Origin: Deroplatys truncata
Taxonomy: Eukaryota > Arthropoda > Insecta > Mantodea > Mantidae
Assembly (NCBI GenBank): GCA_030765065.1
Contig: CM060979.1
Span: 107,434,350 to 107,498,349 of the forward strand
Length of the DNA: 64,000 bases
Reading direction: 5' to 3'
The notes beneath the pieces were generated by a model. The model ran no database searches. It saw only the letters and a list, made by a program, of their open reading frames with translations, and was not told the origin of the DNA. Within the stretch, counting starts at the first letter, position 1, and every line of letters begins with the position of its first letter. Shown here in pieces: positions 2,221-59,077 of this stretch. The position numbers were made by a program, and so were the translations under genes.

Positions 2221-2242
2221 ATTATTTATTTGTTTATTTATT

Positions 2243-17610: not shown

Positions 17611-18589
17611 TGCGACGGTATTATGTTTATTTATTTATTGAGTCCCACGTTTGGGAGCCAATTTGTGACGGTATTAGTGTTTGTTTGAAAGAATGCTACT
17701 GTTTATTTGCCGCACGTATAAAAGACAATTTGTCGCGGTCACTTCGTGTTATCATTTACTGAGCGCCTGTTATTTTATTTAATTTTGGGTTCACTGTCCT
17801 CCGGCTAGCTATGATCTTTTTGGTCGAGCACTTATCTTGTACAAGGTGTGTAAAGGGAAAGGAGTCTTTTATCCACAGATAACACTGATGAAGAATTTGT
17901 TTTACACTTTTGTTGTCGCAACATATTATGCACTTTCACATATTAATCTTGACACTCGCCAAACTGAAACTGTTATAATAACTTATTTACTGCACATTCT
18001 TAATTCGTGTACTTCAACTTTTCGCGTAATTAACTTTACAAAACTTGAAATTTTTCATAACTCTGCTACGCGTAACCTGCGAATCGATAAACTGTGCGAT
18101 GTATTCAGCGACGTGTAATGCACAAATATTTCCGATAGACTGGAGCCGACGTGTAGTGTACAAATGTTTCCGATGGACTGAACGAATTTGACTCTGACCT
18201 AGCCCTTTCTATACTCCTACACCCCGATATGCCTAAAGCTTATAACCGAGCTGCTATTGGTTAATAAAACGCGCCAACATTAGCGTCTATTTTTATATCC
18301 AATGAAAATTACGAAAACATATGCTCTAGGGAAAAATGTTCCAGCAAATTCCTAAGAAAAACGCGCCAATATTACGTCGTTTGCTCGTCTCTAATAATGA
18401 TAAAACAGCTCACCCCCTCGCTACATTATTGCACGCTATTATTGTCAGTTTCAGTAAGGCCGTATAAACTTACTTCTCGACAATGCTTACAATCATCAAA
18501 CATCTCAAATCAATGTCATACAGTAATGCATATTCACACTACAATTGCTCTTGACATTTACATAATTTGTGATACAAATTACTGCATCA
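17611..18589 (-). repeat. 5' LTR
   Basis: The partner of the LTR at 14493. Transcription would run on the minus strand from a TATAGAAAGGG box (18203-18213), which is one base different from TATAAAAAGGG in the 3' LTR. Confidence 0.85.
18203..18213 (-). promoter_or_regulatory. TATA box of 5' LTR
   Basis: TATAGAAAGGG on the minus strand; a TCAGTC start-like motif follows about 30-35 nt downstream. Confidence 0.5.
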
Positions 18590-18796
18590 ATCTATCGTTT
18601 TGGTATTCACAAGTAAATCGTAAGATAATACTAAATACCATCGTAGTGCATGTATCTATCTGGGTTGCTCAATAAAACTAACACTGCCATTAGAGGCAAC
18701 CTTTCAGTGTGTACAGTAATAACTTAAGCTTGATCCTGCACTTCTCCTAGTTATGCACATGCCATATGTTTGCGAGCAGGGCTACACAATTATATT

Positions 18797-18975
18797 TCGG
18801 GATGCTCCCGTAGCTCAGTCGTATAGCACCTTCCTACTGTGCAAGAGGTCCCGGGTTCGATTCCCGGCTGGGGATTGTGAATTTTTCTCTAGCCAAGATT
18901 ATCTCCAATCCTCCACAGAGTCTGGAAGTATGGATGAGGATCTGAATGTGTGTTTGATCTAATAATAAAAACTCC
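18797..18975 (+). mobile_element. tRNA-derived SINE, family C
   Basis: The first ~75 bp are strongly tRNA-like: A box TAGCTCAGTCGTATAGCAC and a perfect T arm CCGGG-TTCGATT-CCCGG containing the B box. The anticodon arm is degenerate and the acceptor stem pairs only partly, so a functional tRNA is unlikely. An unrelated ~85 bp body and a TAATAATAAAA tail follow. No target duplication was found. Confidence 0.75.
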
Positions 18976-29500: not shown

Positions 29501-30267
29501 ATGGTCGCAAAGACTATTTTGTGCTGTTGAAAAATCTGAAAGTATATCTCAATAGAGCGGAGACAACGCTTTCCTAATACGTGCAGTCTTTCACTGGTTC
29601 GGGAGACCTATCGATTTTGATCAGGATAGAGCTCGCGACCAACACTCGACGGTGGACTGCTGACGTCAGTGATTATAAAATTGATTATCTATTTAAATGC
29701 GGTGAGGTCTAGCGTCTCTGTTGACGGTGAAAATGAATACAAATAAGCGTAAACAAACACGATATTCACATAGTGAGGCTAATTAAAGGGGTACGTTTGT
29801 ATTCGTATTGATTCCTACACATTATAGTGATAGGTTTCGTGAATTAGATGTTATTACTATTGATATCAAGAAATTTCATTTTCAGGATGATTTCATAGAA
29901 ATCTGTGTGCACTTAAATTTACCTTAATGTAGAGTTGTGACATAATAATTACCTCACAGCAAGTTCATAATTACGGACTTGTTACACGTAGAATAAGGAA
30001 CTACCTAAATATCCCCATACTAGAAAATAACCGTCCTTCAAGCGAATGATCAATTCTGCAACAAATAATCAAATAAGTACGATGGATAACCTGATCTTCA
30101 ATTTCGAAATTCGCTTGATAATTTTGCTATTATGGCTGTCCCTAGGCTGTCGGCATAATGCCTTGGATTCTCGGCTATAGGATTGAGATTTTCAATATGA
30201 TTCTACCTCTTCAACTTTAGCCTACAAACGACATTTGTGGATGAACCATTATCACTCATTGTCTAAT
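26511..30267. other. sequence with no recognised feature
   Basis: No gene supported. Small items: a 21 bp tandem duplication of ACGGTTTTCATTGAATGTTC at 29008-29048, a purine-rich tract at 29395-29470, and at 29210-29260 a remnant of the left end of the 875 bp repeat. Confidence 0.45.
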
Positions 30268-30500
30268 AGTGGTTTACTATAAATCCCGAGACTTAAAATA
30301 CGATGTCGCAAGTCGTCATTGGGGTGTTTTATCTCAAAATTAATTGGAAAACGCCTTGTGGTTTACCGTAAAACTGCGAGTCAGTTGAAATTAGTGTCGT
30401 ACCGGTATGTTGACATGGTAACCCGGTTAGAGCAACGACACGGAAACCCGAAAAGCTGTGCTTCAAATCATGGCTATGCCATTGAATTATACTTTCCAAA
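30268..30500 (+). repeat. tRNA-like palindromic repeat, half copy
   Basis: Matches the centre and right arm of the elements at 49005-49396 and 51051-51430. The tRNA-like unit is at about 30411-30481 with weak A and B boxes. The left arm is absent, so this copy is truncated on that side. Confidence 0.65.
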
Positions 30501-33434: not shown

Positions 33435-34018
33435 TCAGTTAAGTAGTCTGTTGCTCGATATGAACTTAACCAGACTGCTAACAGAGGCTTTCGATAGTTC
33501 ATCTATCTTTGGAAAGTGACTGCCAAAAATACTTGCTCTTTGACTCGCAAGAGCAGGGCAATCACATAGTAGATGAGTAACAGTCTCTTCTCCTTCTAGA
33601 CATCTACTACAGATAGGGTTGTTAAACAATCCCATTCTGTATAGATTAAACTTTAGGGCACAGTGTCCTGTAATGAATCCTGTTGCCCATGCAAGTCTTC
33701 TTCTACTAAGACCGCGCAAGTATTTTGCCCGGCTGTTATCCAGGTCTGTAATGAACAACTTGGAATGTCTGCAACCCTCAATGGAGTTCCAGTAGTTCTT
33801 GTGTTCTGCTTGAGCCCAGCACTTAATAGCCTGTTTCACTGGTCTGTAGGACACTCCCAGTACAGGCTCCGGACCAAAGAATGGGATTTCACTGCCAATC
33901 TTGGCTGCTTCATCTGCTTTCTCATTGCCTGGTATACCTATATGTCCTGGCACCCACATAAGTTGAACCTTATTGTGTTCAGCCAGTGCCATTAAGGATT
34001 CCCGGCATTCTGAGACGA
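33435..34018 (-). pseudogene. LINE ORF2, 3' fragment
   Basis: The C-terminal ~195 codons of ORF2, cut from the rest by the Penelope complex. It opens in the duplicated target (VSECRESL) and holds the end of RNase H, with QLMWVPGHIGIPGNEKADE carrying the conserved His and last Asp. A Cys/His motif follows, CSRCLEGEETVTHLLCDC, as in I/R1/Jockey-type LINEs. It ends at a TAA 78 nt before the element's 3' end. The frame continues that of 39353 onward once the insertion is ignored and a one-base shift near 39425 is allowed. Confidence 0.9.
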
Positions 34019-34078
34019 TTATAACTAATATGATTTTCCGGGTTGTTATGCCGTGGTCTGCTGAAGAAAGATTTCCCA

Positions 34079-34113
34079 GACGTTTCGTCCACAACTGCGG
34101 TGGACATCTTCAG
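34079..34113 (-). ncRNA. hammerhead-ribozyme-like motif, copy 1
   Basis: CTGAAGA, a helix of GTCCAC with GTGGAC, then GAAAC and GTC. This is the conserved core of type I hammerheads found in Penelope-like elements, with a very short helix III. The CTGAAGA overlaps the TGA stop of the ORF. Confidence 0.7.
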
Positions 34114-35712
34114 TGGCGCGGACGAAGTCTTCTCGGTGAAAGTATCGCAGCGTCTGATGCGTTGGCCGTTAGTGCCGCTCTCTTTATAGTGTGGGCGCTC
34201 TCTGCTGATTGGCCCGCTGGTATAAGGGGGCTGGCGCCGGCTGTGTTGTTGCTCTCTTCTGATTGGCTCGCAGTGTTTTTCGGTTTTGTATGACCTTTCT
34301 TGTTTTTGATGACTAGATGCCAGTTACTGTTGAGTTTCAATGCTTCTTCTTTCCTATTGAAATTATTGGGATGTTTATAAATCTCTATTGCTTCGCGTTG
34401 TAGCCGGGTATGGTAATGCTTTATGGAGGAAAGAATGTTGGTGTCCTGAAATCTAATGATGTGTTCGCCCTCGGCTTCAATGGCATGTTCGGCGACTGCC
34501 GATCTTTCTGTATGGCCCAGGCGGCAGTTCCTTTTGTGTTCGCTCAGTCTGGTGTTAGCGCTCCGCTGTGTGGTACCAATGTACACTGAACCACACGAAC
34601 AGGGAATACGGTAAACACCGGCCGATGACAGGGGGTCTCGGGGGTCTTTGGAAGAGCGCAGTAGGCTGTTTAATTGTCTTGTAGGTTTGAATACTGTTTT
34701 GACGTTATGACGTTGAAGTATGTGTTCAATACGGTCAGTGACATTTCTGAAATATGGCAGAAAGACAATGGACTTGCTTTTGGGTTGGTCCTGAGTAGCC
34801 GGTCGGGGCTTGGCCGGACGGCAGGCTCTTCTCACCTCTTGGACTGAATAACCATTTGATTGTAGAGCTGTTTCTAGGTGTCGGATTTCTTGTGGAAGTA
34901 AGTGTGGTTCACAAATACGGGAAGCACGGTTTGCGAGTGTCTTAATCATAGCACGTTTTTGTCTAGGATGGTGGTTGGAGTTCTTGTTAAGGTAACGGTC
35001 TGTGTGTGCGGGTTTGCGGTAGACAGTATGACCCAGCGTGCCGTCAGCCTTCCTGCTAACGAGTACATCTAGAAAGGCTAGTTGGCCATCCTTTTCTTGT
35101 TCCATTGTGAACTGTATACGCTGTTTGATGCTATTTAGATGTAACAAAAAATCTTGAAGGGCTAGTTCACCATGGGGCCAGATGACGAAGGTGTCATCCA
35201 CATAGCGGAACCAGGCTGTTGGTTTGAGTGGAGCTGAGTTTAGTGCCTTTGACTCAAATGCCTCCATGAAGAAATTGGCCACAACAGGGCTAAGGGGGCT
35301 GCCCATGGCAACACCATCTATTTGCTCGTAGAATGACCGGTTCCACTGGAAATAAGTCGTAGTCAGGACATGGTGAAAAAGTGTAATGATATCATCAGAG
35401 AAGATGGGTTGTAACAACTTCAGAGTTTCTTGTACTGGAACCATGGTGAATAGAGACACAACGTCAAAACTAATTAGTAAATCCTTAGGTAGCAATTTGA
35501 GGTTGCGGAGAATTTGAATGAAATGAGTAGAATCTTTGATGAAAGAGTCGGACAAGCCGACATGGGGTTGTAGAAGACCGGTTAGGTATTTAGCTATGTC
35601 GTATGTGGGAGAACCAATACCACTAACAATGGGCCTGAGCGGAACATCTGGTTTATGGATCTTGGGTAGCCCGTAAAGTCTAGGCGGCTGAGCTTCGGAC
35701 TTGGTAAGGCGG
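34110..35712 (-). CDS. Penelope RT/GIY-YIG protein, inverted copy
   Basis: An open frame of about 530 codons with no ATG at its 5' limit, which is a one-base insertion near 35712 in an A run. It covers RT fingers and palm (PKIHKPDVPLRPIVSG, then DVVSLFTMVP, then GVAMGSPLSPVVAN), the catalytic YVDD in WFRYVDDTFVIW, a linker, and the GIY-YIG nuclease (GVYRIPCSCGSVYIGTT with downstream Arg and HKRNC). The tail is Lys/Ser-rich. The RT copies RNA using a nick made by the nuclease. This copy has the intact base run that the plus copy lost before YVDD. It is truncated at the N terminus and so probably inactive. Confidence 0.85.
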
Positions 35713-35911
35713 CGTTTTGTCTTCCTTCGAAAGCGAGGAGTTCTTGATCAAAAGATTAGTTTTCCGTAGAATACGGGCTGTCGGATCACGTTTAATCTTA
35801 TGGTAGGTTGCTGGTTGCAGGAGTTCAGAGATTTTCTGTTGATTGTCTTGTTGGTTAAGAATAACTGTGGCATTACCCTTGTCCGCTGAGCAAACAATGA
35901 TGTCTCAAGAC

Positions 35912-36596
35912 TCAGGACCAACCCAAAAGCAAGTCCATTGTCTTTCTGCCATATTTCAGAAATGTCACTGACCGTATTGAACACATACTTCAACGTCATA
36001 ACGTCAAAACAGTATTCAAACCTACAAGACAATTAAACAGCCTACTGCGCTCTTCCAAAGACCCCCGAGACCCCCTGTCATCGGCCGGTGTTTACCGTAT
36101 TCCCTGTTCGTGTGGTTCAGTGTACATTGGTACCACACAGCGGAGCGCTAACACCAGACTGAGCGAACACAAAAGGAACTGCCGCCTGGGCCATACAGAA
36201 AGATCGGCAGTCGCCGAACATGCCATTGAAGCCGAGGGCGAACACATCATTAGATTTCAGGACACCAACATTCTTTCCTCCATAAAGCATTACCATACCC
36301 GGCTACAACGCGAAGCAATAGAGATTTATAAACATCCCAATAATTTCAATAGGAAAGAAGAAGCATTGAAACTCAACATTAACTGGCATCTAGTCATCAA
36401 AAACAAGAAAGGTCATACAAAACCGAAAAACACTGCGAGCCAATCAGAAGAGAGCAACAACACAGCCGGCGCCAGCCCCCTCATACCAGCCGGCCAATCA
36501 GCAGAGAGCACCCACACTATAAAGAGAACGGCACTAACGGCCAACGCATCAGACGCTGCGATACTTTCACCGAGAAGACTTCGTCCGCGCCACTGA
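35912..36596 (+). pseudogene. GIY-YIG coding part in pseudo-LTR
   Basis: A 3' slice of the Penelope ORF carried as part of the pseudo-LTR. The frame is open through its full length, from the linker after the RT (KSKSIVFLPYFRNV) through GVYRIPCSCGSVYIG to the terminal SPRRLRPRH. It has no RT and no start codon near its 5' end; the first ATG is within the nuclease at 36120 or beyond. Because it is a structural copy it need not be translated. Confidence 0.8.
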
Positions 36597-36627
36597 AGAT
36601 GTCCACCGCAGTTGTGGACGAAACGTC
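36593..36627 (+). ncRNA. hammerhead-ribozyme-like motif, copy 2
   Basis: Same core as copy 1: CTGAAGA, six-base-pair helix II, GAAAC, GTC. If active it would cut the element RNA just after GTC at 36627, about 95 nt before the pseudo-LTR ends. Confidence 0.7.
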
Positions 36628-36721
36628 TGGGAAATCTTTCTTCAGCAGACCACGGCATAACAGCCCGGAAAATCATATTAGTTATAATTGTGACACCGGC
36701 CGTGAAAACCTACGTTCTTAC

Positions 36722-39215
36722 ATGACTCGCCTCTACGGGGAGGAGGCATACCGTCTGATCGTCGTCTAGAAGTGCTACGCAAACAAAAATCTTCTTTGCT
36801 GTGTTCACTTGCCTTTCTTCTACGCTGCCGAGACTCGGGAATTATTCCTAAATTCCTACGACAGAAACGACATTTTCACCACCGCTGCCGCCAACCGCAT
36901 TTACAATCGCTCTGAGCGGGCCTTGCTCCGAGAACGCATCCATCAGACCAGACGACAACTCTCTGCCAACAATAGTCAACTACTCATCTTACATCTTCAA
37001 GTAAGTAACTCACTACACAGTTTTGATTGGGACAACACTGACAGAATCACCTACAGCTCTATGACATACAATCACAACAGCATGACCACTCGTCACAAGA
37101 AGAAGATTGATGGCCTTACTCCCTCCATCAAACCGCCGACTACTCTCAACCACTGCCGCACGGTAGTGAACTTATCTGATCACCAGCTGTCACCTGCTGA
37201 AACGTCACTCCTTGCTAAAGGAGGTAACTACGCTGTTGTCACTCCAACGTTACCAGTTGAAGACATCATTTTCACATTGAAGCAGGAATACGAGTTCTGC
37301 CAAGGCTTGCAGCTGATGAAATTCGCCGGGAATCTGCCAGGGTTCTCGAGAAGGCCAAACCTCCTACCAGTAATTTAACCAATCAAGAGAGAACTGCATT
37401 AAAGAAGCTGAACTCCAACCGAGACATCATTGTTTGCTCAGCGGACAAGGGTAATGCCACAGTTATTCTTAACCAACAAGACTATCAACAGAAAATCTCT
37501 GAACTCCTGCAACCAGCAACCTACCATAAGATTAAACGTGATCCGACAGCCCGTATTCTACGGAAAACTAATCTTTTGATCAAGAACTCCTCGCTTTCGA
37601 AGGAAGACAAACGCCGCCTTACCAAGTCCGAAGCTCAGCCGCCTAGACTTTACGGGCTACCCAAGATCCATAAACCAGATGTTCCGCTCAGGCCCATTGT
37701 TAGTGGTATTGGTTCTCCCACATACGACATAGCTAAATACCTAACCGGTCTTCTACAACCCCATGTCGGCTTGTCTGACTCTTTCATCAAAGATTCTACT
37801 CATTTCATTCAAATTCTCCGCAACCTCAAATTGCTACCTAAGGATTTACTAATTAGTTTTGACGTTGTGTCTCTATTCACCATGGTTCCAGTACAAGAAA
37901 CTCTGAAGTTGTTACAACCCATCTTCTCTGATGATATCATTACACTTTTTCACCATGTCCTGACTACGACTTATTTCCAGTGGAACCGGTCATTCTACGA
38001 GCAAATAGACGGTGTTGCCATGGGCAGCCCCCTTAGCCCTGTTGTGGCCAATTTCTTCATGGAGGCATTTGAGTCAAAGGCACTAAACTCAGCTCCACTC
38101 AAACCAAAGCCTGGTTCCGCTATGTGGATGACACCTTCGTCATCTGGCCCCATGGTGAACAAGATCTTCAAGATTTTTTGTTACATCTAAATAGCATCAA
38201 TCCGCGTATACAGTTCACAATGGAACAAGGAAAGGATGGCCAACTAGCCTTTCTAGATGTACTCGTTAGCAGGAAGGCTGACGGCACGCTGGGTCATACT
38301 GTCTGCCGCAAACCCACACACACAGACCGTTACCTTAACAAGAACTCCAACCACCATACTAGACAAAAACGTGCTATGATTAAGACACTCGCAAACCGTG
38401 CTTCCCGTATTTGTGAACCACACTTACTTCCACAAGAAATCCGACACCTAGAAACAGCTCTACAATCAAATGGTTATTCAGTCCAAGAGGTGAGAAGAGC
38501 CTGCCGTCCGGCCAAGCCCCAACCGGCTACTCAGGACCAACCCAAAAGCAAGTCCATTGTCTTTCTGCCATATTTCAGAAATGTCACTGACCGTATTGAA
38601 CACATACTTCAACGTCATAACGTCAAAACAGTATTCAAACCTACAAGACAATTAAACAGCCTACTGCGCTCTTCCAAAGACCCCCGAGACCCCCTGTCAT
38701 CGGCCGGTGTTTACCGTATTCCCTGTTCGTGTGGTTCAGTGTACATTGGTACCACACAGCGGAGCGCTAACACCAGACTGAGCGAACACAAAAGGAACTG
38801 CCGCCTGGGCCATACAGAAAGATCGGCAGTCGCCGAACATGCCATTGAAGCCGAGGGCGAACACATCATTAGATTTCAGGACACCAACATTCTTTCCTCC
38901 ATAAAGCATTACCATACCCGGCTACAACGCGAAGCAATAGAGATTTATAAACATCCCAATAATTTCAATAGGAAAGAAGAAGCATTGAAACTCAACAGTA
39001 ACTGGCATCTAGTCATCAAAAACAAGAAAGGTCATACAAAACCGAAAAACACTGCGAGTCAATCAGAAGAGAGCAACAACACAGCCGGCGCCAGCCCCCT
39101 TATACCAGCGGGCCAATCAGCAGAGAGCGCCCACACTATAAAGAGAGCGGCACTAACGGCCAACGCATCAGACGCTGCGATACTTTCACCGAGAAGACTT
39201 CGTCCGCGCCACTGA
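36722..39215 (+). pseudogene. Penelope RT/GIY-YIG protein, full unit, frameshifted
   Basis: The complete coding length of the element but broken. The N-terminal stretch (about 36765-36880) is in a different frame from the block at 36809-37378 (TAAANRIYNRSERALL). A one-base shift near 37300 leads to the core domain (IVCSADKGNATVILNQQDY, about 37425). RT motifs follow, then a one-base deletion near 38107 breaks the frame just before YVDD; the inverted copy has the extra base. From 38124 the frame is open through the linker and GIY-YIG (GVYRIPC...VYIG) to TGA at 39213-39215. It cannot make a full protein without frame changes. Confidence 0.85.
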
Positions 39216-39246
39216 AGATGTCCACCGCAGTTGTGGACGAAACGTC
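39212..39246 (+). ncRNA. hammerhead-ribozyme-like motif, copy 3
   Basis: Identical to copy 2 in the core. The C of CTGAAGA ends the last His codon and TGA is the stop. Confidence 0.7.
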
Positions 39247-39352
39247 TGGGAAATCTTTCTTCAGCAGACCACGGCATAACAGCCCGGAAAATCATATTAG
39301 TTATAATTGTGACACCGGCCGTGAAAACCTACGTTCTTACATTCTGAGACGA

Positions 39353-41536
39353 GCTTTGATTTTATTGATGGTGATTCAAGTGCTTTAAGGGCAGCTTGAC
39401 TGTCTGAGAGGATAAGAACACTTCTATTCTTATATCTCCTTTTAATGCTTTCCATGACACTGCTAGGATTGCATAAACCTCAGCCTGGAAAACTGTCGCT
39501 AAGGTACCAAGACTATAAGAAATCTTGGTACCATTACCGTAAAGCCCAGCCCCCGTTCCCGATTTGGTTCTAGAACCATCAGTATACCAGATTGTGCCTT
39601 TATTATTATGAGGTTTTACCAGTCTTTCCCATTCACTCCGATGTGGATAGGATACCGTGAATTTCAAATCAAACTTGAATCTTGTTTCAAGAATGTCAGT
39701 CCCCATGTTGAGTATCTGTTGTACATTCTTATCCCAAGGAAGCTTGAGATGATTAATATGTCCAGTGTTAGACACTTTGGTTTGGCGACAAATACGGTGA
39801 TACGCGATCATGGCTTCTGCCTTCAGCCATAAGTGGAGAGGTGTGAGCCCAATCAGCATCTCCATAGCCGCAGTTGGAGTAGTTTTGAAGGCTCCCATAA
39901 CTGAAATGCAGAAGGTCCTCTGTAATTTACAGAGTTCCTTTCTGCACACCTTTAAATTAACTCTAGGCCACCACATCAGTGCGGCATAAGAGAATATAGG
40001 TCTCACCATGGCAGTGTATATCCAATACACTATGCTAGGTTTCAGACCCCATGTCTTGCCAAGCATACCTCTACATGTCCAAAAGACTCTGTAGGCTTTG
40101 GTAATACATAATTCCATATGATGTTTCCAAGTTAATTTCTTGTCTAAAACAAGCTCAAGATATTTAACTTGTGTTGAATAGGGCACTACTTCACCAAAGA
40201 GAGAGAGTCTGGTTAAATCAGCCCCCTTCTCCTGGTGAAGGGGTACCACTACTGTTTTGCTTGGATTAACAGTTAGATTATTCATCTTGCACCAAGCTTC
40301 CACTTTCTCAAGCGCCATTTGTAGCACTTGAGAAACTGTGTGAGGAAATTTCCTTCTTATGATTATTGCAATGTCATCTGCAAAACCAATTCTGAAGTAA
40401 CCATCACTATTGAGTGCGCAAAGAAGTGTGTCCACTACAAGGTTCCATAGCAGGGGTGATAAAACACCCCCCTGCGGGCAGCCCCTCTCCGTGGACACAT
40501 CCAGCGTCTCCCCACATAGATTCATGGTTATCTTCCTATGTTGTAAGACAAAACGTATCCACTCACAAAGAAGTGAAGGTACATCGTGTCCATAGAGGGC
40601 GTTCGTCACGACATCACAAGATGTCATGTCAAACGCACCTTCAATATCAAGAAAAGCACCAATGGCTATTTCTCTGGTATTAAGCGCCTTCTCAATAGTC
40701 GAGACCACTTGATGAAGTGCTGCTTCCGTTGATTTCCCTGTTTGATAGGCAAATTGGTACTTGTTTAATGGATGTTCCATTAAAACGTAATCCCTAATGT
40801 GCCTATCCACTAACCTCTCCAAAGTTTTAAGCATAAAAGAGGAGAGACTTATAGGGCGATAAGCCTTAGCCTGGGCGTAACTAGGACGCTCTGGTTTAGA
40901 TATAAACACCACCTTTGTTTGTCTCCAAGCCATGGGTATATATCCATAGGCTAGACAAACTCTAAAAATACCACAAAGTAGGGATTGAACTGAATCAATA
41001 CCATATTGTAGAAATGCAGGGATGATTGAATCTGGGCCTGCCGATTTATATGGTCCGAATGACTTGACAGCCCATCGTATTTTAGTGACATTGACTACGC
41101 TCCTGATTAGGTTCCAATTCTCTCTGTCCAAAGAAAGATGGTCCAGATTTGGTTGTCCCTTCACAGAATTGCTGTCATTGTTTACCTTAAAGTCTGGAAA
41201 GTGAGCCCTCGCAAGTTGCAGGAGCGTCTCAGAACCAGACTGTGTGTACGTGCCATCAGGCAGTTTAATAGTGCTCACAATTTTTTTAACACCCTTTGCC
41301 ATATGTTTCATGAATCTTGCACTGCTGGGAACATTCTCCATCCCCTGGCAGTACTCCCTCCACGAAATCCTTTTGGCTTTACGTATTTCTTTGTTATAAT
41401 TGGTGAGGGCTTTTCTATATGAATCCCAATCACCAGTTTTTTTTGCAAGTCTAAATAATTTCCTTGCTTTCTTCCTAAGTCTGCTTAACTCTTTAGTCCA
41501 CCAAGGCACAAGCCTTGGCGAGTAAGCTACCTTAGG
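39353..41536 (-). pseudogene. LINE ORF2, RT and RNase H part
   Basis: Continues the endonuclease frame after one in-frame TAG (41537-41539). It opens with VPWWTKELSRLRKKARKLF, a conserved pre-RT stretch. RT blocks follow: AYRPISLSSFMLKTLERL, FLDIEGAFD with the first catalytic Asp, ERGCPQGGVLSPLLWN, and IGFADDIAI with the catalytic FADD. RNase H begins at IWYTDGSRTKSGTGAGLYG and FQAEVYAI. A one-base shift near 39425 moves the frame; in the new frame LILSDSQAALKALE reads correctly up to the Penelope insertion. The protein would reverse-transcribe LINE RNA at a nicked target and remove RNA. It is inactive here because of the stop, the shift and the insertion. Confidence 0.9.
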
Positions 41537-42382
41537 CTAACAATTTTGATAATTGGATAGGAGAATTGACCGTTGTATGTCATCAACGGCAAACTCCACA
41601 TCCAATATCGAACGAATGTTCCTTGAGATACCCGATGTCAATGCTGATAGATCTCGTCTATATCCGTCCCAGTCAGTTTTCCTCGAATTTCTGCAAATCA
41701 CTGGTAGAGTGACTTGTGCTCTAATATTGAAGCATATGCATCTATGATCAGAGAGAGTGATCTCCGATGATACACGCCAACTTGAAATTAGGTTCTCAAT
41801 AATATTAGTCCCTATCGTTATGTCAATGACTTCCTCCCTTCGCAAAGTTACAAAGGTTGGTTCATTACCTCGATTTAGAATATTAAGGTTTGTACTCACC
41901 AAGTACTCCATTAACTTTTCTCCTCTGTGATTGATATCAGTGCTCCCCCACAGTGTGTGGTGTGCATTGGCATCAACCCCCAGGATTAACTCCTTTCCAT
42001 TCTCTCCGCAATGGGTCACAAGGTCCCTCACCGCTATCGATGGTGGATCAGAGTCTTCGTAAGGGAGGTAGACAGAAGAGAGTATTAAAACTCTTCTCTC
42101 TCCTGCCTCCTCCACTATTGTTTGGATTGTAGTTACATCCCTGGAACAGTGCTCAGTAAGAAGCAATGCGTTTATCCAATTCTTAGCATAAATACATGAT
42201 CTTGGATTATTATTACTAGGTCTATATATAGTGCCCTTAGTACAACTGATCCCTCTAATTGAACCTCTGAAGAGCCAAGGTTCCTGTATGAGAGCAATAT
42301 CAACATTGTCTTCAACAAGTCTCTTACTTAGAATGGCTGAAGCTGCCTTACAGTGCTGCAAGTTAATTTGAACTATTTTCAT
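41537..42382 (-). CDS. LINE ORF2, AP endonuclease domain
   Basis: About 281 codons from the ATG giving MKIVQINLQHCKAASAIL; an upstream GTG in frame is not a credible start. The APE-like endonuclease motifs are in order: QINLQHCK at the start, LIQEPWL with the metal-binding Glu, SSVYLPYED, GVDANAHHTLWGS, and the final SDHRCICF with catalytic Asp-His. It nicks target DNA to prime reverse transcription. It ends at an in-frame TAG (41537-41539), and the same frame resumes as the RT part. The ATG lies 26 nt after the ORF1 stop, so reinitiation is plausible. Confidence 0.9.
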   Translation of the reverse strand: MKIVQINLQHCKAASAILSKRLVEDNVDIALIQEPWLFRGSIRGISCTKGTIYRPSNNNPRSCIYAKNWINALLLTEHCSRDVTTIQTIVEEAGERRVLILSSVYLPYEDSDPPSIAVRDLVTHCGENGKELILGVDANAHHTLWGSTDINHRGEKLMEYLVSTNLNILNRGNEPTFVTLRREEVIDITIGTNIIENLISSWRVSSEITLSDHRCICFNIRAQVTLPVICRNSRKTDWDGYRRDLSALTSGISRNIRSILDVEFAVDDIQRSILLSNYQNC

Positions 42383-42408
42383 AATTGCATTAACCCACAA
42401 CACTTACC

Positions 42409-43566
42409 TTAAGCAGTACCCGATGCGGATTCTCCAGAGTCCCCTATCATCGTCTCCGGACTGTCTCCGCCATCGCTGCCTGCCTTCTTCGCTTTGTCTG
42501 CTACTGCCTTCCCCTCTGGGTCAGACAGGATCTTAAAAAGGGCCCTGTCTACCCCGGTATAGGCCGACATGCCAAGCTCCTTTATCTTCTTAGCAGACTC
42601 TTGGTCCACCATTAGGATTAGGCGTTGACCAGAGGAGTCTGCCTGCTTATCAATGATTTTCCAGTGTTCTATATTCAGCTCCTGGTTTAATCTTTGAATG
42701 CGTCTTAGCAGCACCTTAGGATCATCAGTTGTAATGTCCCGAGTCTTAAGGGCCACCTTGACTGGCTTAGGTAGATCTTTTGGATTTACTACTTTGAGAA
42801 CTAATCTCTCCTTGATTTTAGCTCCTTGAATATGTTTTTGGAGCCAGCTACATGACTGCTCATCATCACAATAATATATCAGAGCCCCATCCTGTAGAGA
42901 AAAGGACCTGAGTTTAGGTAGAGATTCACTGGTTGGCGCCTCATCTATCTTCCTCAGAATCTCAGCCTGAATGGGTCGAATGTCCTCCCCAATCAGCTTT
43001 CTCTCAGGATAGGACTCTTCCACAATTGCCATCTTGAAAGCGGCCAAAGCTTCCCTGTAAGTAACACCAGGTTCAGTGCCCCTAGGCCTCTTAACAGGTT
43101 TGGCTTTATCCGAAGGAGGAGTATCCACACTTGTCCTGGTTCTTTTAGAAGTCCCTGGATCAGTACGGACCTCCACCCCTTTACTCTGTGAGTTTACATT
43201 ACCTGTGCCCTCACTCATTTTCTTAGCTTTTTTTATTCTTCTTCTGGCTGCCCCTGATAACTTCTTAGTGTCCAGGTGCATTCTATTAATTCCAGATGCT
43301 GTTGCACCCATTTGTTTATCTAGTGACAGATTTCTCTCTGCTGGAGAGTCTCTGTCACTTGACTTTTCTTTGTCAGGTGAGAGATTTCTCTCAACTGGAG
43401 AGTCTCTCTCACCCGCCTTGGTGATATTTATTTTATTTTGGTCCATATTGGTCCCACGAGTACCAGGGAAATAAGTCACCCAATACAGAGCCCCGTATAT
43501 ATTGGGAAGGCTAATTACTTCAGGGTGTCGCCTGGTGCCCTGAAGAGATCGTTCACGACACTGCAT
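42409..43566 (-). CDS. LINE ORF1 protein
   Basis: 385 residues, intact. An in-frame TAA two codons upstream fixes the start at the first ATG (MQCRERSL). The N-terminal half is charged and repeats a short ERDSPVERNLSPDKE-like unit (ERDSPVERN, DRDSPAERN) before a basic patch ARRRIKKAKK. The C-terminal half, from about residue 165 (YREALAAFKMAIVEE) to about 340, looks like the RNA-binding domain of I/LOA/Jockey-type ORF1s of the DUF4780 kind; that family name is from memory. It would coat element RNA. No CCHC knuckle is seen. It is the only complete ORF of this LINE. Confidence 0.8.
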   Translation of the reverse strand: MQCRERSLQGTRRHPEVISLPNIYGALYWVTYFPGTRGTNMDQNKINITKAGERDSPVERNLSPDKEKSSDRDSPAERNLSLDKQMGATASGINRMHLDTKKLSGAARRRIKKAKKMSEGTGNVNSQSKGVEVRTDPGTSKRTRTSVDTPPSDKAKPVKRPRGTEPGVTYREALAAFKMAIVEESYPERKLIGEDIRPIQAEILRKIDEAPTSESLPKLRSFSLQDGALIYYCDDEQSCSWLQKHIQGAKIKERLVLKVVNPKDLPKPVKVALKTRDITTDDPKVLLRRIQRLNQELNIEHWKIIDKQADSSGQRLILMVDQESAKKIKELGMSAYTGVDRALFKILSDPEGKAVADKAKKAGSDGGDSPETMIGDSGESASGTA

Positions 43567-43842
43567 TTTTTACCACCCCAGTGCCATTCATCCCTCGGCA
43601 CGATGCATTCCCACCTTGGATTGGGTGGACCAGAGCCTCTGGAAGGTCCTCCAGCTGGGAGTCCCTCAAGGTTCTCCAACTGGGAGACCCTTTGGGTTGG
43701 ATTTTCTGTTGAGCCACTTCTTAGTCTGGTACCTCATTACGAACCTCTCTGGCATGAGTACCTCTACCAGCACAGCTTAGTAAATCACTGGTACACGGAA
43801 GCCTCCCCACCAACTACAAGGTCCTGTGGCTCCTAGGGGAGG
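43567..43842 (-). promoter_or_regulatory. LINE 5' leader
   Basis: 276 nt between the target duplication and ORF1, GC-richer than the flanks. Its ends coincide with the 12 bp duplication, so it is probably complete and carries the internal promoter. It contains a near-repeat of CAGCTGGAGG/CAGTTGGAG-type phrases. Confidence 0.6.
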
Positions 43843-49004: not shown

Positions 49005-49396
49005 GGTTGAAAGTTAGAATAAGACTGAAAATTTCAATGTCATAACCAGGATTTTAACCACGGATCTTCGGTTTTCCATACAGTTGCTCTAATCAGCCGT
49101 GTTACTATGGCAACATGTCGTCGCGACATTTAATTGTCCAACTGATAACTAACACTGATTAGCATAATAGGCTAACTATGAAGCCCGGAACTTAAAATAA
49201 TTAATAGATTGTAAGTTTTATGTTATCTCAGAATGAATTTGAGAACGCCTAATGGTTTACCGGAAAAGCATCGAGTAAGAGAATTTTATGTGCTGGCATG
49301 TTGCCAAAGTAGATCAACGGCACGGAAAGTCGAATATCCTTGATTTTAATCCCGACCATGGCTTTACATTTTTTGGTCTGATTTTACCTTTCCAAC
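49005..49396. repeat. tRNA-like palindromic repeat, copy B
   Basis: Two inverted arms of about 130 bp around a ~130 bp centre. Each arm has a tRNA-like unit reading outward and a T-run after it. The centre shares CCCGGAACTTAA, TTATCTCA and AATGGTTTACCG with copies at 30268 and 51051. The right tRNA-like unit has lost about 12 nt. Confidence 0.75.
49039..49112 (-). ncRNA. tRNA-like unit, left arm of copy B
   Basis: 74 nt, from TGCCATAGT to the end of the acceptor-like stem, with B box GGTTAAAATCC and TTTT downstream. The A box is degraded. Likely a pseudo-tRNA head, not a working tRNA. Confidence 0.5.
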
Positions 49397-51085
49397 TCAT
49401 CAGGTTTATAAACACAAAAGATAAAAACCTAAAATAAATAAAATGAATAACACAGTACTCTTGTTCTCTTATTTATATCTCCCTCTCTCTCCCTTACGCG
49501 CGCACACACACACTCTTACATAAAGTGATTTTGTTTGAAAGAGAGGGGAATCATATTCTAAAAATCAGATCATGCCCAATACTTTAACCATGGTTTTTAG
49601 ATATACTACAACCAAAAGCTACCCTATCCGCCCCCCTAAACCGAACAGCAAATATCTCTTCATCTTACATATACATATATGTTACATATACTTCGGAGAT
49701 GTCTAAGGTTATCTAGGCTACGGAAGATTTCTACCAGCAAACAATTTGAAATGTTACGAGCGTTTTAGACACGCTATTTTAATTTATTTGTCGGTTGTTC
49801 AGATGTTATTTGTTATTGAATTTTAAAAACAGTAAACATTACATGCACCTACTTAAAATACTGCATATAAATTATATAAATAAAACAAAAAACATTTATT
49901 TAAGTAGGTATTTAAGTTTAACATTGACAAATTTGAATGTCTAGGAAATAATAAAGGATTTTGGTTAGAAACGCTTGCAAATTAAGTTAAAAATCCACAT
50001 TTACAGCATGTGAAAAACCATTTAATTTTTTTTCGTGTTAACAAGCTCAAGTTCGTGTGTATTTTTTCCTAGAATAAGTTTTTATCAATAGCTTATAGCC
50101 TCTTAGTTATATAACATTACATAAAATTCAAATAAACAAAGAAGCCTTCATGTCAAGTACATGACATTTAATAAATATATTATAAATTATTTACATTTTG
50201 ATAAAATGAATAATAGCGACAATTTTTACTTCCTCTACTACGTACGTTGTAGTGTATTGCATTCGACCTAAAAATTTAATATCGATATTTCATCAATAAT
50301 ACATGTTTTATACCTTCAAAAGCAGAGAAAGCATTTTTTGAAAAAAAAATCTACATGCGTATGTTTGGATGTGTATGTTATCAGCAGCATGTAAAGAAAT
50401 GCGCAATAAATACCAAATTTGGTATTTAAGTTTAGAAGTTTGCAAATATATCACAGGAGGATTTTCTAGAAAATTCCTCTACAAAATGGTTTTTCGTTAT
50501 TTTGTTTTTTTTTCAAAAATGACCTACTTTTATCAAAATATCAAATCTTTAAGATATTTACACGAAAAATAAAATGTATATCTCGAATTTTATGGAAATA
50601 GCTTATCAAGTCCTCTTTAAGGAATTCTACACAAGGTTTATAACTGGTAAATCACAAGAGATAGATAAAAATTACTACACCAAAAATGTAGATCCCTTAA
50701 AATAAACAATTTATTTCCAATAACTCTTCTCTAGTATCAGCCATTTAAGACATATCGGTTTTTATTGGTTTCAATGTTTCAATACTTTGCCATTTTATTT
50801 TTTGAAGTACTGCCCACCTTCAGTTGTTTCTCGCGATGTCATGGAAGAGCATGAAATTTCAATGTCAGTATGTAGCCACCCGTTTTTAAACAGCCGTCTT
50901 TATCAACTTTGTACCTAAAACGACATGCGTAATAAAACTATTTATACAAACCTTTATAACGATTTACCTACATGAACTAGCTAGAAGAACACACTTTTGA
51001 AAGAATGGAATTAATTGTTCTGTCACACAAGCCCCATGTGTTGGACAAGCTTGGAAAGGTAGAATCAGACGAATGAAAAATTCAG

Positions 51086-51159
51086 TGCCATCGTCAGGAC
51101 ATGAACCACGCATCTCCCGGTTTTCGTCCGGTTGCTCTAACCACTGAGCTACTATGGCA
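51086..51159 (-). ncRNA. tRNA-like unit, left arm of copy A
   Basis: 74 nt, exactly tRNA size. The ends TGCCAT and ATGGCA pair as an acceptor stem; GCTC/GAGC forms a D stem; CCGG/CCGG encloses a 7-nt loop ACGAAAA where an anticodon would be GAA. A box TAGCTCAGTGG, B box GGTTCATGTCC. The T stem is poor. TTTTT follows 5 nt downstream, a Pol III stop. Probably a mobile pseudo-tRNA. Confidence 0.6.
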
Positions 51160-51321
51160 ACATGCCGGTACGATATTAATTTACCTAATAGTGGTCGAAG
51201 CTATGAAGCTCGGGACTTAAGTACTTACAACATTGTAAGTCGCCATTGGGGTATGTCATCTCAATACAATTTGAGATCTGCTTGTGGTTTACTGTGGGAA
51301 TTTAATGTCCTACCGGCATGT

Positions 51322-51395
51322 TGCCATGGTAGCTCAGTGTTTATAGCAACCGGACGGAAACCGGAAGATCCGTGGTTTAAATCCCGGCGATGGCA
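51322..51395 (+). ncRNA. tRNA-like unit, right arm of copy A
   Basis: 74 nt and mirror partner of the left unit. Acceptor-like TGCCAT/ATGGCA, A box TAGCTCAGTGT, CCGG-anticodon-like arm, B box GGTTTAAATCC, and TTTTT at 51401-51405. Confidence 0.6.
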
Positions 51396-51756
51396 TTGGA
51401 TTTTTCAGTCATCTGATTCTACCTTTCCAATTTTGTAAGACTGGTTTGCAGAAGCTTTATAGAAATAGGCAATAGTGGATAGAGAAAGTCATGCCAGTGT
51501 AACACACGAAATTTTTCCATGTGGGGTGTGAGTTTTGTATCTTACTGTCCCATCACTGGAGGGTGGTTTACTTAAATGCGAAGTTTTTGGGTTACGCTCT
51601 TCACACAAGCTCAGAAGTTTTTCTAAGGGTGCTTTTCTTTTGGGTTTAGTAGATCTTAAAACGTACGTTTGGGTAAAATCTGGATACCAAATTTTTGGGT
51701 GAAATACAATACTTTCACTATCACATATTGCTAGATGATAAGGTAGAAATTTACAA

Positions 51757-52561
51757 TCTAGGATGCAGGATGTAATTATCAGAGGGGACCTCTCGCCACT
51801 GTATATTGTAGCTACACCCCCCGGGAAGCAGGGATGAAGTGTATAAATCGCAGGAAGTCGCAGGTCCGCAGGCAGACGGGATCACGGAAGTCCCCATCAT
51901 TTCCAGTACGAAACACCCACTTTCGCCAGTAGACTCAGAGTCCCGCTAGAGGTTGACGAAGCGGCCATTGCAGACAGGCCGGCAAACGCGCCTTGTTGTG
52001 GGCGAGGAGAAGTGTTCCAAAGCGCAGCGACCAGACGCGCTGCGGAATCCAGAGACACTGTTAAATTAAATTAAATTGAGTTTTATTTGTGGGCGCTCTT
52101 TAACTGCTGGGGTCCTTAGCGTCCCATTCTATATTGGGCGCGAAAGCCGATAATTTTGCTCAGAGGCCACTTTATCAGGCTTGTGGTTCTTTTACGAGCC
52201 GTAAATCTACGACACGGGACCACCGGCTTTACTTCCCTTCCGAAGGAAGCCATGCTAAGGATTTCCGAAAAAATCCATCGCCCTCCTCCGGGTTTGAACC
52301 CGTGACCTCGGGAATTGGAGGCTAACATGGTAACCACTACACCTCGGAGAACGACAGGGACACTGTCTGAAACATGAAAGGAAGAGATATGAAATGACAG
52401 GAAATGAAGGAAAGGAGAAATCGTCGTAAAATTCACCACGCCTAGGCAACCCAGAGGAAAACTACGAAAAACCCCATGATCAGAATAGGTGGCCATCGGA
52501 ATCGAACGCGGGACCTCCCGAATCCTGGCCACAGAAATTGGCACCTGAGTCATCTCGCTTG
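51757..52561 (-). mobile_element. tRNA-derived SINE, family B, interrupted
   Basis: The minus-strand head (A box region near 52545, B box GGTTCGATTCC-type near 52500) is followed by a body and a 3' module that match 60387-60887. The element is split at 52062-52354 by a family A SINE. Removing that insert and one target duplication joins the two parts in the family order. Confidence 0.8.
52062..52354 (-). mobile_element. tRNA-derived SINE, family A, inside SINE B
   Basis: Minus-strand relative of 8865-9145. Tail is a run of AATTT units. Flanked by CAGAGACACTGT (52050-52061) and CAGGGACACTGT (52355-52366), a 12 bp duplication with one mismatch. Confidence 0.95.
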
Positions 52562-52839
52562 GTAAACTGACAATGAGATTTCAAACATGGCTATCCTGCC
52601 TTGTTGCAGTAATTTTCGCCAAGCAATACGTTGCAGAGGAGAAGGTATAACTTCATAAATATCCCTTAGATAGGGGTAACCGTAACAAATCTGATGCATT
52701 ACATTAGCTGACTTTCTCTGCCTTCTTGCGTTTCTTCGTAGATACACAAGTTATTCTTACGAAAGTTTAGTTTCTATCTTCTTCATTTTAATCTAGACAA
52801 AACTTTACGAAAATAACTGCATTACACATTTGTTTTATA

Positions 52840-53060
52840 ATAGATATAAACGGAAAGGCGATAGTCAAATGTTTAAGAACTGGACGTTATGTACTGGCTT
52901 TAAAATTGCATGCTCTTTGCGTGCGATCGCGAGAAGCAGTTGAATATCGAACAGACTTAAAAAGTATGACCATTTATTGAACAATTCGAACTATTGACAA
53001 CGGATATCTCGGAAATGGCTGATGCCACAAAAGAGTTATTAAAATAAATTGTGTGTTTCT
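52840..53060 (-). repeat. 875 bp dispersed repeat, fragment
   Basis: Shares GCGATAGTCAAATGTTTAAG and TATCTCGGAAATGG...GCCACAAAAGAGTTATT blocks with 58560-58700, the right half of an inverted copy. It abuts the plus-strand copy at 53079. Confidence 0.55.
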
Positions 53061-53078
53061 AAAGAGTTTTACATTTTT

Positions 53079-53206
53079 ACTTTCTCTACTACGTATAGTA
53101 AGTAGGGGAAGTATTGTACTCCACCCAAATATTCGGTATCGAGATTTCACCGGAAATATATGTTTTGAGAGCCCCTGAATCCAAAAACAGCATTTTTGGA
53201 AACATG

Positions 53207-53252
<46 letters not shown>

Positions 53253-53956
53253 TGTGTCTGTCTGTGTGGTTACGAACAGCATTACTCAGAAACGAACAGT
53301 CGGATAAACACCAAACTTGGTATTTAGGTTCAGTATCTTCCAGAGATGCGACACGAAGGTTTTCGAGAAAATCCCCCATCCCAGATTACCCTTTATATGG
53401 AACATTTTTCGAAAATTTTAATTCTCTCAAAAATGGCTCTAACGATTTTGACTAAAATATCATATGTTTAAGATATTTTCATGACAAATAAAATGTATAT
53501 CTTGAATTTTCTGGGAATGTCTCCAAAAGTATTCTTCATTGTGAACGACTTTTGCATAACTGGTAAACCATAAGACATAGACAAAATTTTACTATACAAT
53601 AAATGTAGATCGCGTTAAAATATACAATTTATGTCATATACATTTTTGTTGTTGAGTGAACCATTTTCGAGATATTGCTTGTTATTCCCTTAAATTTTTC
53701 AATGCTCATTTCCTCAAATAGGAATTCGTTATTCATTTTTTGTCTTGGATATGCAAAGAGTATTAATCTGTGGCAAAGAGAATGGTGCTGCACATATCAA
53801 CCAGTATTAAGAGATATGTCCATGCTTAAAGACTACTGTATTTATATATTGCCCTTGCAAATACAAAACAAGGGGAACATATCGTTTCAGCAAATGTTTA
53901 TCTCGATTAATATGAAATAGATGGAGAATAAGAGTTTGTACAAGAATAGAGAAAGT
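53079..53956 (+). repeat. ~875 bp dispersed repeat, copy 6
   Basis: Closest relative of 2243-3117. It has a (GT)n run of about 20 units at 53210-53250 in the shared position. Ends as in copy 1. Confidence 0.85.
53210..53250. repeat. (GT)n microsatellite
   Basis: About 20 GT units, then CTGT variants, inside the dispersed repeat. Confidence 0.95.
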
Positions 53957-54279
53957 CATGTGAGTGTAACACATAAGTTTTTTTGCGTAGTACGTTTTCT
54001 TCTATGCTTAGCTTTTACCAATTGTACATTATAGAAAGTTTCTTGCAAACGAAGTAGACTTTACATTCTATTCTTAGAAAATTCAAGATATACGCTTAAC
54101 CTACTTTATTTGAACTTATCCTTTAGTTGATAGAATATAAATGCTTGCGCTCATTGTGGTAGATTTCGTTTATCACGATTTCTCCGGTCTTAAGAGGAGA
54201 TACCTGTTGCTGTAGTAAGCTTTAAGAAAGGCGCTGAATTAAACTGGTGTAGATCAAGCGCTCTGCTTCTTTTAATCTG
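53957..54279. other. AT-rich, with a dispersed-repeat remnant
   Basis: About 54050-54100 contains ATTCTTAGAAAATTCAAGATATACG, an inverted scrap of the 875 bp repeat. Nothing else. Confidence 0.4.
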
Positions 54280-57432: not shown

Positions 57433-58436
57433 GTAAATTATACGCTTAGGATGTGAACTGTATATCACCAAACACTTAAACATTCCTCTTAGTGCTTCAA
57501 AATTTTGGCTTTTTCTAACACAAAATTGCACAAAATACACTATTGTGCATTACATTTACAACGTATTTGTACGATTATTTCTAACAGTAGCCTACTGACC
57601 TTCATTGTATTCAGCGCAACCATGAAGGAGTTTCTACATATATTTCGGTATACTCAGGTTCGACCTCGATAGAGACAGGTTGAATGTCTATAACAGTCAT
57701 TTATTGCTTTACAGAACAGATGATTTCCAAACAATTTTATACACCGAAACAATCTTATATTATTCCGTATTCTATTAAGACTAGAGCACGAAAAACTTAC
57801 GCACGATTATCTCTTCCATGTCAGTCCATCTATCCTAAGCATTCGGCCAAATTTCCATTTGCAACCTAGCTCGTTTCTGTAATTGGAGCTGTTACAGAGA
57901 TAAGCCGAATTGTCATATTCCACGATAAATTTACGGGTTCAATTCATTCATTTCCTGCTCCTTTTCGAAATCTTCTGATAGTTAGTAGAGTGTTTTACAC
58001 AGACAAAGGAAGAAAGAAGGAAAAAAGAAAGGGAAAAAAGTGAAAAGTACGTAATGTAATCAACTGGGCAGTCTTTTCTAGTTTTTAATGTATGAAGGAC
58101 CACAGTGTAGGATATTTCATGAAGTGTGTTAACCACATTTTGCTAGAATCAACAACGAACATTTGGTAAGTTTTCTTTCGAAAAGCGTCATCAAAACGCC
58201 AAGTTCATGTGTTCAGAGAGCTGTCAGTTTAGAGGAAGAATATCTGAAAGTTTCACAGGTCCCTCAAACCCAGGTAGTGGATGACAGATATTCTTCAATA
58301 TTAGAAAAATAATTTAGTGCAGATGGACTAACTTGCAGTAATACGCTGCTATAGATGAGTCCTAAAATCATAGTATTTTGTTTAACTGCACGTTTATATT
58401 TTTCGAGGTAAAAGTCTTATGTGTTATTTTCATATG
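57433..58436. other. sequence with no recognised feature
   Basis: Nothing supported. Confidence 0.5.
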
Positions 58437-59077
58437 CCTTTCTCTAGCCACTATCGTTTATTTTTGTATAGCTTCTAAACGCTATTCTTACAAAAGCTTA
58501 TTTTTCTACCAACTTCGTATCAATCAAGATAAGCGTTTGCAGAAATAGATTAATTACACATTTTGTTGTAGGTACAAGTGAGATGTTGAAGCGATAGTAA
58601 AATGTTTAAAAGCAGGTCGCTTTAATCTTGCTTTGAAATTCCATCCTCTCTTCATATCTCGGAAATGGACAATGTCACAAAAGAGTTATTTTAAATAAGT
58701 GTTTTAAAGGTATCTACGTAGTTTTGTATAGTGCTTAAGCTCCTTTTTTATCTCTTACGGTTTATCACTTACACAAAATCCCTTCCAAAGAAAAGGCTAT
58801 TCCCAGAAAGTTCAAGATATACTTTTACTTGTTCATTTTGGTATTTATCAGGCATTTCTATTCTGAGTTATGCTGTTTGCACACACACTCACACACACAC
58901 ACACACACACACACCACACCACACCACACCATGTGCGCAGGCTCGCGGGATTTGTTTTAAAAGATCCTTTTTTCAGATTCAGAGGCCTCAAAACACGTAT
59001 TTCCGTTGAAGTCTCGATATTGAATTTTGGGTGGAATGTAATATTTCCTCTACCTACTAGTACGTAGAACAGAAAGT
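58437..59077 (-). repeat. 875 bp dispersed repeat, inverted copy
   Basis: Minus-strand copy with both ends recognisable: ACTTTCTGTTCTACGTAC at the right and the GGCTAGAGAAAGG end at the left. It holds the family's simple repeat as (CA)n at 58879-58910. Confidence 0.7.
58879..58927. repeat. (CA)n and CACAC microsatellite
   Basis: CA repeat followed by four ACACC units. Confidence 0.95.

Follow-up and report, generated by a model that had tools for sequence, protein, structure and literature searches.

Structure of the 51-kb insertion

The window (the whole stretch analysed, 64,000 nucleotides of the Deroplatys truncata assembly GCA_030765065.1) contains a palindromic insertion at about 51 kb, in which two tRNA-like units lie on opposite strands and face outward. 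The inverted repeat (51045-51185 and 51296-51436) is 141 nt long and 85% complementary, with 110 nt between its arms. When the whole window was scanned with Rfam, both units reached at least the gathering score for RF00005: 51323-51395 on the plus strand (41.4 bits, E 2.3e-5) and 51086-51158 on the minus strand (37.4 bits, E 2.9e-4). A first-pass annotation of this DNA had described two divergent tRNA-sized arms and suggested an Infernal-type check of both; the scan and the inverted repeat bear out that description. ARAGORN reported no tRNA in the whole window at its default setting. Once the threshold was relaxed, a tRNA-Phe-like cloverleaf emerged for the left arm, amid many spurious ones. 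Pol III-like signals, which the annotation had also read, were found in or directly after each unit: an A box at 51141-51151, a B-box-like stretch at 51097-51107 and a T5 run in 51075-51081 for the minus-strand unit, and an A box at 51330-51339, a B-box-like stretch at 51374-51384 and a T5 run in 51400-51406 for the plus-strand unit.

The flanks of the insertion belong to another interspersed repeat, which is present free of the insertion at 58421-58660 (minus strand) and, more diverged, at 52686-52922. Alignment with the paralogous empty site at 58421-58660 defines the inserted piece as 51007-51430, so that the limits first proposed (51051-51430) had to be moved, and shows a 12-bp target duplication, TTTTGAAAGAAT at 50995-51006 on the left and TTTTGTAAGACT at 51431-51442 on the right. 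A match of at least 10 of 12 within 60 nt was obtained in 37 of 5000 random placements. The target repeat itself is diverged, with partial copies in the window at 50223-53983, 2238-3164, 7008-7244 and 58408-58660.

Read from left to right, the insertion begins with a 44-nt tail, T (51007-51050, minus strand), which ends in ACAATTAATTCC on that strand, is matched by the tail HMM at 51006-51049, recurs in genome copies and is present at this end only. It is followed by the direct arm A (51051-51178, arm HMM positions 1-128 of 128), where the element reads on the minus strand and which holds the tRNA-like unit at 51086-51158. The centre C (51178-51296, plus strand, centre HMM positions 1-120) is attached to the inverted arm A (51303-51430, plus strand, arm HMM positions 1-128 of 128), which holds the unit at 51323-51395 and whose outer end lies at site 1 (CCTTTCCAA). 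In the list of open reading frames, none of at least 110 amino acids overlaps 51007-51430. Because of this, the element is at most a non-autonomous client of a Penelope-like element (PLE) and not itself a PLE, which would carry an open reading frame with reverse transcriptase and GIY-YIG domains.

Older copies in the window

Two further copies, at 49 kb and 30 kb, are homologous to the 51-kb copy, and Rfam finds no tRNA in either of them even at E≤1. The annotation had assigned the same layout to 49005-49396. An old second palindrome does lie there (49009-49395; arms 69% identical, with a (TTAA)n stretch at its left end), and the tail HMM recognises no tail in it. The junction between inverted and direct parts seems to differ between the 51-kb and 49-kb copies, although the latter is old and uncertain. 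The 30-kb copy (30164-30493, plus strand) had been taken for half a palindrome and is instead an old direct, head-to-tail copy in the order arm end, tail-like stretch, centre, arm. Its matches are to the arm HMM at 30164-30214 and 30392-30493, to the first tail HMM at 30198-30251 and to the centre HMM at 30262-30373.

Matches to the tRNA arm that have neither centre nor tail occur at 18797-18894 of the window and in three random genomic segments (L071 3109-3194, L075 1032-1125 and L076 6945-7024); these are probably other tRNA-derived repeats. Separately, 14665-15547 and 17783-18675 of the window have near-identical open reading frame translations, that is, they form a duplicated segment.

Repeat unit and genome-wide copies

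The assembly that holds the window (4.29 Gb, 818 contigs) was searched for further copies. The repeat unit of the element is C-A-T, consisting of the centre C, the tRNA arm A and the tail T of 42-44 nt, which contains an AC-rich hairpin. Units are ∼319 bp long, have a GC content of 0.439 and can stand in tandem. The arm consensus built from genome copies, a step that the annotation had recommended, retains the A and B boxes and the T5 run after the tRNA. There are two preferred outer ends, site 1 at the A/T boundary (unit position 277) and site 2 after T. Target duplications, which were also to be looked for, are present in many genome copies; they are 8-15 bp long and abut site 1 on one side and the end of the tail on the other. 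The element thus recurs in the genome, as had been claimed, and is no ordinary single-headed SINE.

For one set of loci, designated “e51-selected”, the 51-kb palindrome was used as the query, so that the query bore its junction, and the best 40 of 8742 candidates were scored; 30 of these are palindrome-search loci (L031-L060) and the other ten places are L061-L070. Most palindrome-search loci have a tail close to CCYTGTCCAACACACGGCTTGTGTGRAAGAACAATTAATTCC beside one arm; the opposite arm ends bare, in TTGGAAAGG-type sequence. Among the head-to-head clusters in L031-L070, the tail is at one outer end in 34 of 36 and at neither in 2 of 36, with L053 counted as one-tail although its other end passes a tail into the next unit. 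L053 (1456-1956) thus breaks the one-tail rule, its left end being a tail and its right end extending beyond a tail into the centre of the next unit. Elsewhere the C-A-T unit is repeated directly, and three insertions (L061, L065 and L066) end at CCTTTCCAA without a tail, the duplication at L061 having been read by eye. A duplication script, whose search window can miss some, printed 24 of the 30 loci; 12 scored at least 8 and 12 scored below 8. Examples of the higher scores are L033 (11/11), L036 (12/12), L044 (12/12), L050 (11/11) and L051 (13/13). The tRNA of L060 scores 53.5 bits with Rfam.

Within the e51-selected set, a 20-copy consensus (from L031-L059) has one junction, GGTCAATT joined to TAATGTCG (compare 51150-51200 of the window). 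This shared junction could reflect a hot spot, with AATT microhomology next to site 2, or the inheritance of a palindromic template. Random genomic sequence (100 kb, L071-L080) contained one palindromic copy (L078), too few for a genome count. Among viral and prokaryote contigs no relatives held up (candidate loci scored at most 11.2 bits with nhmmer). A phage search gave 58 records with weak matches; among the 20 listed (E 0.4), 14 lay on annotated tRNA genes.

Loci sampled irrespective of architecture

A 33-mer across the arm/tail boundary has 5684 exact occurrences in the whole assembly (2895 + 2789), and the reversed control has none. The first 100 places, the ones listed, are all on one chromosome and fall into 82 loci, of which 69 have a single tail and 13 have several. 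Both strands were represented in 6 of the 13 multi-tail loci among these places, always in the order minus then plus and never plus then minus; note that two of the six, separated by 8 kb and identical in spacing, could represent a single duplicated locus. The other 7 of 13 have tails on the same strand, spaced 311-319 except for one spacing of 163.

The first 24 of the 69 single-tail loci, taken in chromosomal order, comprise 15 head-to-head insertions and 9 in one orientation (the flanks of L092 resemble those of L093, and the two may represent a single duplicated locus). Alignment gave exact duplications of 10-14 bp at L094, L095, L096, L097, L098, L099, L108 and L111, and near-perfect ones at L089, L093, L102 and L103. 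Those at L090 and L092 are weak, and L106 lies within an ATT repeat. No convincing duplication was seen in 9 of the 24 (L091, L100, L101, L104, L105, L107, L109, L110 and L112).

When L084 (described below) is added to the 15 palindromes, the outer end of the inverted part lies at unit position 272-282 in 11 of 16 and short of it in 5 of 16. The joins are spread over the unit, giving 15 distinct junctions in 16, with one near-repeat (L091/L098). The annotation had held that a shared centre showed the palindrome to have spread as a unit. The centre does recur, being part of the repeat unit, whereas the inverted/direct junction usually differs between copies. Spread as a unit fails in general, since the palindromes of the 24-locus sample arise within single insertions and nearly all have a junction of their own. 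Junctions recur in part, namely the e51 type within the set selected for it and the nearly identical pair L091/L098. Nor do single arms brought together by chance head-to-head insertions, the contrary case that the annotation had named, describe these loci: where a duplication was found, one duplication encloses both halves.

Young copies and arrays

A search with arm plus tail, in which the best 40 of 1336 candidates were scored, gave 40 matches that cover 157-162 of the 162 query bases with 99-100% identity, plus four partial matches. Several of these young matches stand in arrays with a 319-bp period, and some of the arrays are head-to-head. In L081, L082 and L083, 10 of 11 full 319-bp units are identical across both orientations and one differs by 1 (the 326-bp unit of L082 was left out of this comparison). 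In L083 the arms are alike at all but 1 of 128 positions. A full unit of L060 differs from the young units by 2 or 3, its 306-bp unit having been left out.

Single young insertions have the same ends. In C2_176 the left end is the tail, the right end is site 1 and the duplication is TATTGTACAT. C1_303 has the tail on the left and a right end a few bases short of site 1, with the duplication AATACTGTATATAA. In C2_131 the left part is an inverted arm truncated near site 1, the right end is the tail and the duplication is AAACCACTTAATA. L084 is a small palindrome whose arms are alike at 92/93 positions, with the duplication TATTTTTACAATA on both sides. Among copies of the family in general, microhomology-like joins (AATT, CCCGG and AAG) were read by eye.

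Relationship between the two halves

Arms were compared within and between copies in 23 e51-selected palindromes, from which L047, L049, L053, L055, L056, L058 and L060 (of 30) had been left out beforehand. The 5′ and 3′ arm consensus sequences are identical. Arm identity is 0.891 within copies versus 0.866 between copies, a value reached in 0 of 10000 permutations. A copy's own partner was the best-matching arm in only 6 of 23, and the common polymorphic sites are mostly concordant. At 14 younger loci the within-copy excess is weak (0.932 versus 0.916; 384 of 10000 permutations) and the own partner was best in 2 of 14. The own partner is seldom the best match because the subfamilies are homogeneous.

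Arms of different haplotypes occur within one copy at L037, L043, L052 and L033, and the arms of L098, which has a 13-bp duplication, are alike at 115/128 positions; therefore, two RNAs can be used. Both halves of a copy are therefore usually drawn from identical or similar RNAs, and sometimes from two.

A putative Penelope-like element in the window

A young element at 34019-39341 (plus strand) has a layout of the same kind, with an inverted partial copy that starts at the equivalent of site 1 (34019), a direct partial copy, a fuller copy and a tail at one end (39307-39342). It is flanked by an 11-bp duplication, TTCTGAGACGA, at 34008-34018 and 39342-39352, and it carries a reverse transcriptase domain. 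No GIY-YIG domain was detected in it with Pfam at E≤10 or with solved structures at E≤1; its translation includes a stretch that reads as a putative GIY-YIG-like motif. Hammerhead-like cores (CTGAAGA..GAAA) lie at 36593 and 39212 on the plus strand and at 34097 on the minus strand, and Rfam is silent on them even at E≤0.5. From the reverse transcriptase, the putative motif, the hammerhead-like core and the layout, we call this a putative PLE.

When its 3′ end was used as the query, the best 40 of 453 candidates were scored and all were listed at 100% identity. Some matches are ∼2.6 kb apart on contigs C12 and C16, placing the family in part in tandem. The matches indicate that the family is recently active and in part tandem. 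The element apparently lies inside the RNase H part of a LINE (open reading frames 33435-34109 and 39362-43569, minus strand), which is presumably jockey-like. The window also has reverse transcriptase and endonuclease domains of LINE type.

Homology between tail T and the tail of this PLE was considered and rejected, as 1203 of 5000 shuffles scored as high. A hammerhead in the tRNA unit was likewise sought and given up. Rfam gave no hammerhead match at E≤1 in L060 850-1850, a weak test in that Rfam also missed the core of the PLE. The core CTGANGA..GAAA is absent from both strands of the circular unit; the same regular expression finds 2 in the PLE.

Proposed mode of integration and alternatives

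We consider it probable that the element is a non-autonomous retroposon of ∼319-bp C-A-T units that integrates in a Penelope-like manner. Its palindromes would usually form anew as the element inserts, through one reverse transcription on each of the two target strands, because 15 of 24 loci are head-to-head, nearly all junctions are different and units in both orientations are near-identical. In this scheme a PLE-type protein would cut both target strands ∼8-15 bp apart, and each cut end would prime the copying of one type of RNA into cDNA; such an RNA could hold several units. Copying would start at site 2, after the AC-rich hairpin tail, on one strand, and usually at site 1, just before the tail, on the other. 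The two cDNAs, each ranging from a fraction of a unit to several units, would then be joined head-to-head, and the one-unit outcome would be a palindrome with two diverging tRNAs. A PLE would supply the protein that mobilises the tRNA element, the template would be a circular or long tandem RNA, and the tRNA would serve transcription or RNA processing. Features of a PLE client were found in the one-end tail (34/36), the tandem and inverted 5′ parts and the short variable duplications, the last not at every locus.

Several results count against Penelope-like integration. Tail T lacks significant similarity to the tail of the window PLE. Pol III would be expected to terminate at the T5 run that follows each tRNA, at odds with a multi-unit template, which would have to come from Pol III read-through, from another polymerase or from circles as in retrozymes. 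The junction shared by the e51 consensus and the near-shared one of L091/L098 count in the same direction, and some palindromic templates may be inherited. Further points on this side are the few copies in which the own partner arm matches best, the copies with arms of different haplotypes, the loci with no convincing duplication (9 of 24 sampled) or a script score below 8 (12 of 24 e51-selected), and the asymmetric ends, given that the Anolis PLE shows no strand difference in start site in vitro. Finally, because neither Pfam nor solved structures returned a GIY-YIG domain, our confidence was lowered slightly, and that in the first two alternatives below was raised slightly.

Mobilisation by a LINE is doubtful. 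The element would then be a tRNA SINE, and its palindromes would arise when the reverse transcriptase of an ordinary LINE undergoes twin priming and jumps between templates; both LINE-type domains, reverse transcriptase and endonuclease, do occur in the window. Twin priming fits the target duplications, the 5′ truncation and the microhomology-like joins. However, twin priming is known to start the second cDNA at variable places, whereas 11 of 16 inverted parts start at one site. The 319-bp tandem arrays and the one-end tail are features of PLEs, and the tail HMM matched only the element's own copies in the window.

We regard as quite improbable a palindromic master that is copied whole, its arms kept alike by gene conversion. 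The one clear junction in the 20-copy e51 consensus and the nearly shared junction of L091 and L098 would be expected of such inheritance, but the e51 set was selected by a query bearing that junction (best 40 of 8742 candidates), and the 15 palindromes of the 24-locus sample plus L084 show 15 distinct junctions among 16 copies. In young arrays each side is made up of several units. In addition, both tRNA promoters face outward from the centre, and transcription from either would fall short of a full-length RNA. A fixed inverted-dimer SINE with centre flips between its inverted arms had fitted the e51 loci and was dropped on the 24-locus sample.

A MITE, here a DNA transposon that moves by cut and paste and whose long terminal inverted repeats contain tRNA genes, would account for long inverted arms with near-identical ends but was dropped on the empty site and the one-sided tail and has almost no probability left, since the palindrome ends themselves carry no duplication, 44 nt of tail separate duplication and palindrome on one side, duplication length varies where a fixed-length duplication should abut the inverted repeats, and single-orientation and tandem copies are common.

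Within Penelope-like integration, a more specific scheme is possible, though we think it unlikely, in which the tRNA replaces the hammerhead. Here tRNA-processing enzymes would cut a tandem transcript to units, which would be ligated to a circle, and a Penelope-type enzyme would copy the circle round and round from both cut strands at once, yielding head-to-head arrays of identical units.

Comparison with known systems

In the parts of Frangieh et al. 2024 (PMC11167929) used here, which present the first report of a PLE protein active in vitro, the purified protein of an Anolis PLE is described as cutting the target on both strands and extending both. Reverse transcription starts at two adjacent internal sites in an AC-rich stem-loop, the stretch between them being the PLE “tail”, and the start site shows no strand difference in vitro. 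Penelope copies, as described in sections of PMC3846280, have tandem and inverted pLTRs, an optional 31-bp tail on one inverted pLTR and 8-10-bp duplications, and trans-mobilisation of a gene is also described there. The tRNA element resembles PLEs (Penelope/Poseidon, GIY-YIG plus reverse transcriptase), as portrayed in these excerpts, in its tandem units, inverted 5′ part, AC-rich stem-loop, short variable duplications and optional one-end tail of 30-40 nt, corresponding to the stretch between two internal start sites (PMC11167929, PMC3846280). With the PLE-like element of the window it shares an inverted part that starts from the equivalent of site 1, a one-end tail and a flanking duplication. 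Unlike PLEs, it has no open reading frame of at least 110 amino acids (51007-51430) and carries a tRNA-like unit; unlike the window PLE, the one PLE compared, its tRNA unit has no detected hammerhead core, and the two tail sequences are not detectably similar. Its ends are asymmetric, in contrast to the absence of a strand difference reported for the Anolis PLE in the cited part of PMC11167929. This asymmetry suggests that copying on the two strands begins at different sites in vivo.

Metazoan non-LTR retrozymes, according to the portions of PMC7761336 and PMC7229834 drawn on here, carry a hammerhead, form circRNA and consist of non-coding ∼300-bp tandem units with GC below 45%, with PLEs proposed as helpers. 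The tRNA element is like them in its non-coding tandem units of ∼300 bp, its GC of 0.439 and its target duplications when present, and differs in having a tRNA-like unit in place of the hammerhead ribozyme, none being detected. Head-to-head arrays seem not to be described for retrozymes, the word “inverted” being absent from the main text of PMC7229834.

Talua of termites and Sbg1-9 of Blattella are tRNA-derived SINEs in which head, body and tail run in one direction, and the relevant passages of PMC4348803 and PMC9191728 describe no palindromic SINE. A tRNA head with A and B boxes, a 3′ tail and target duplications are common to these SINEs and the element. It is two-directional, unlike Talua and Sbg SINEs, a distinction drawn from those partial descriptions and not from sequence. 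Among the papers listed in literature searches, no palindromic, tRNA-MITE, dimeric-SINE or PLE-SINE family was recognised as the same element, and a tRNA-bearing PLE client was not encountered. On that basis alone we take the element to be probably new.

As a short non-coding family with many young copies, it records each integration as a pair of cDNAs in which start sites, joins and duplications can be read. If Penelope-like integration is correct, the element would be a tRNA-bearing PLE client, a counterpart of the retrozymes without a ribozyme, and what otherwise appears as a puzzling palindromic “double SINE” would be explained.
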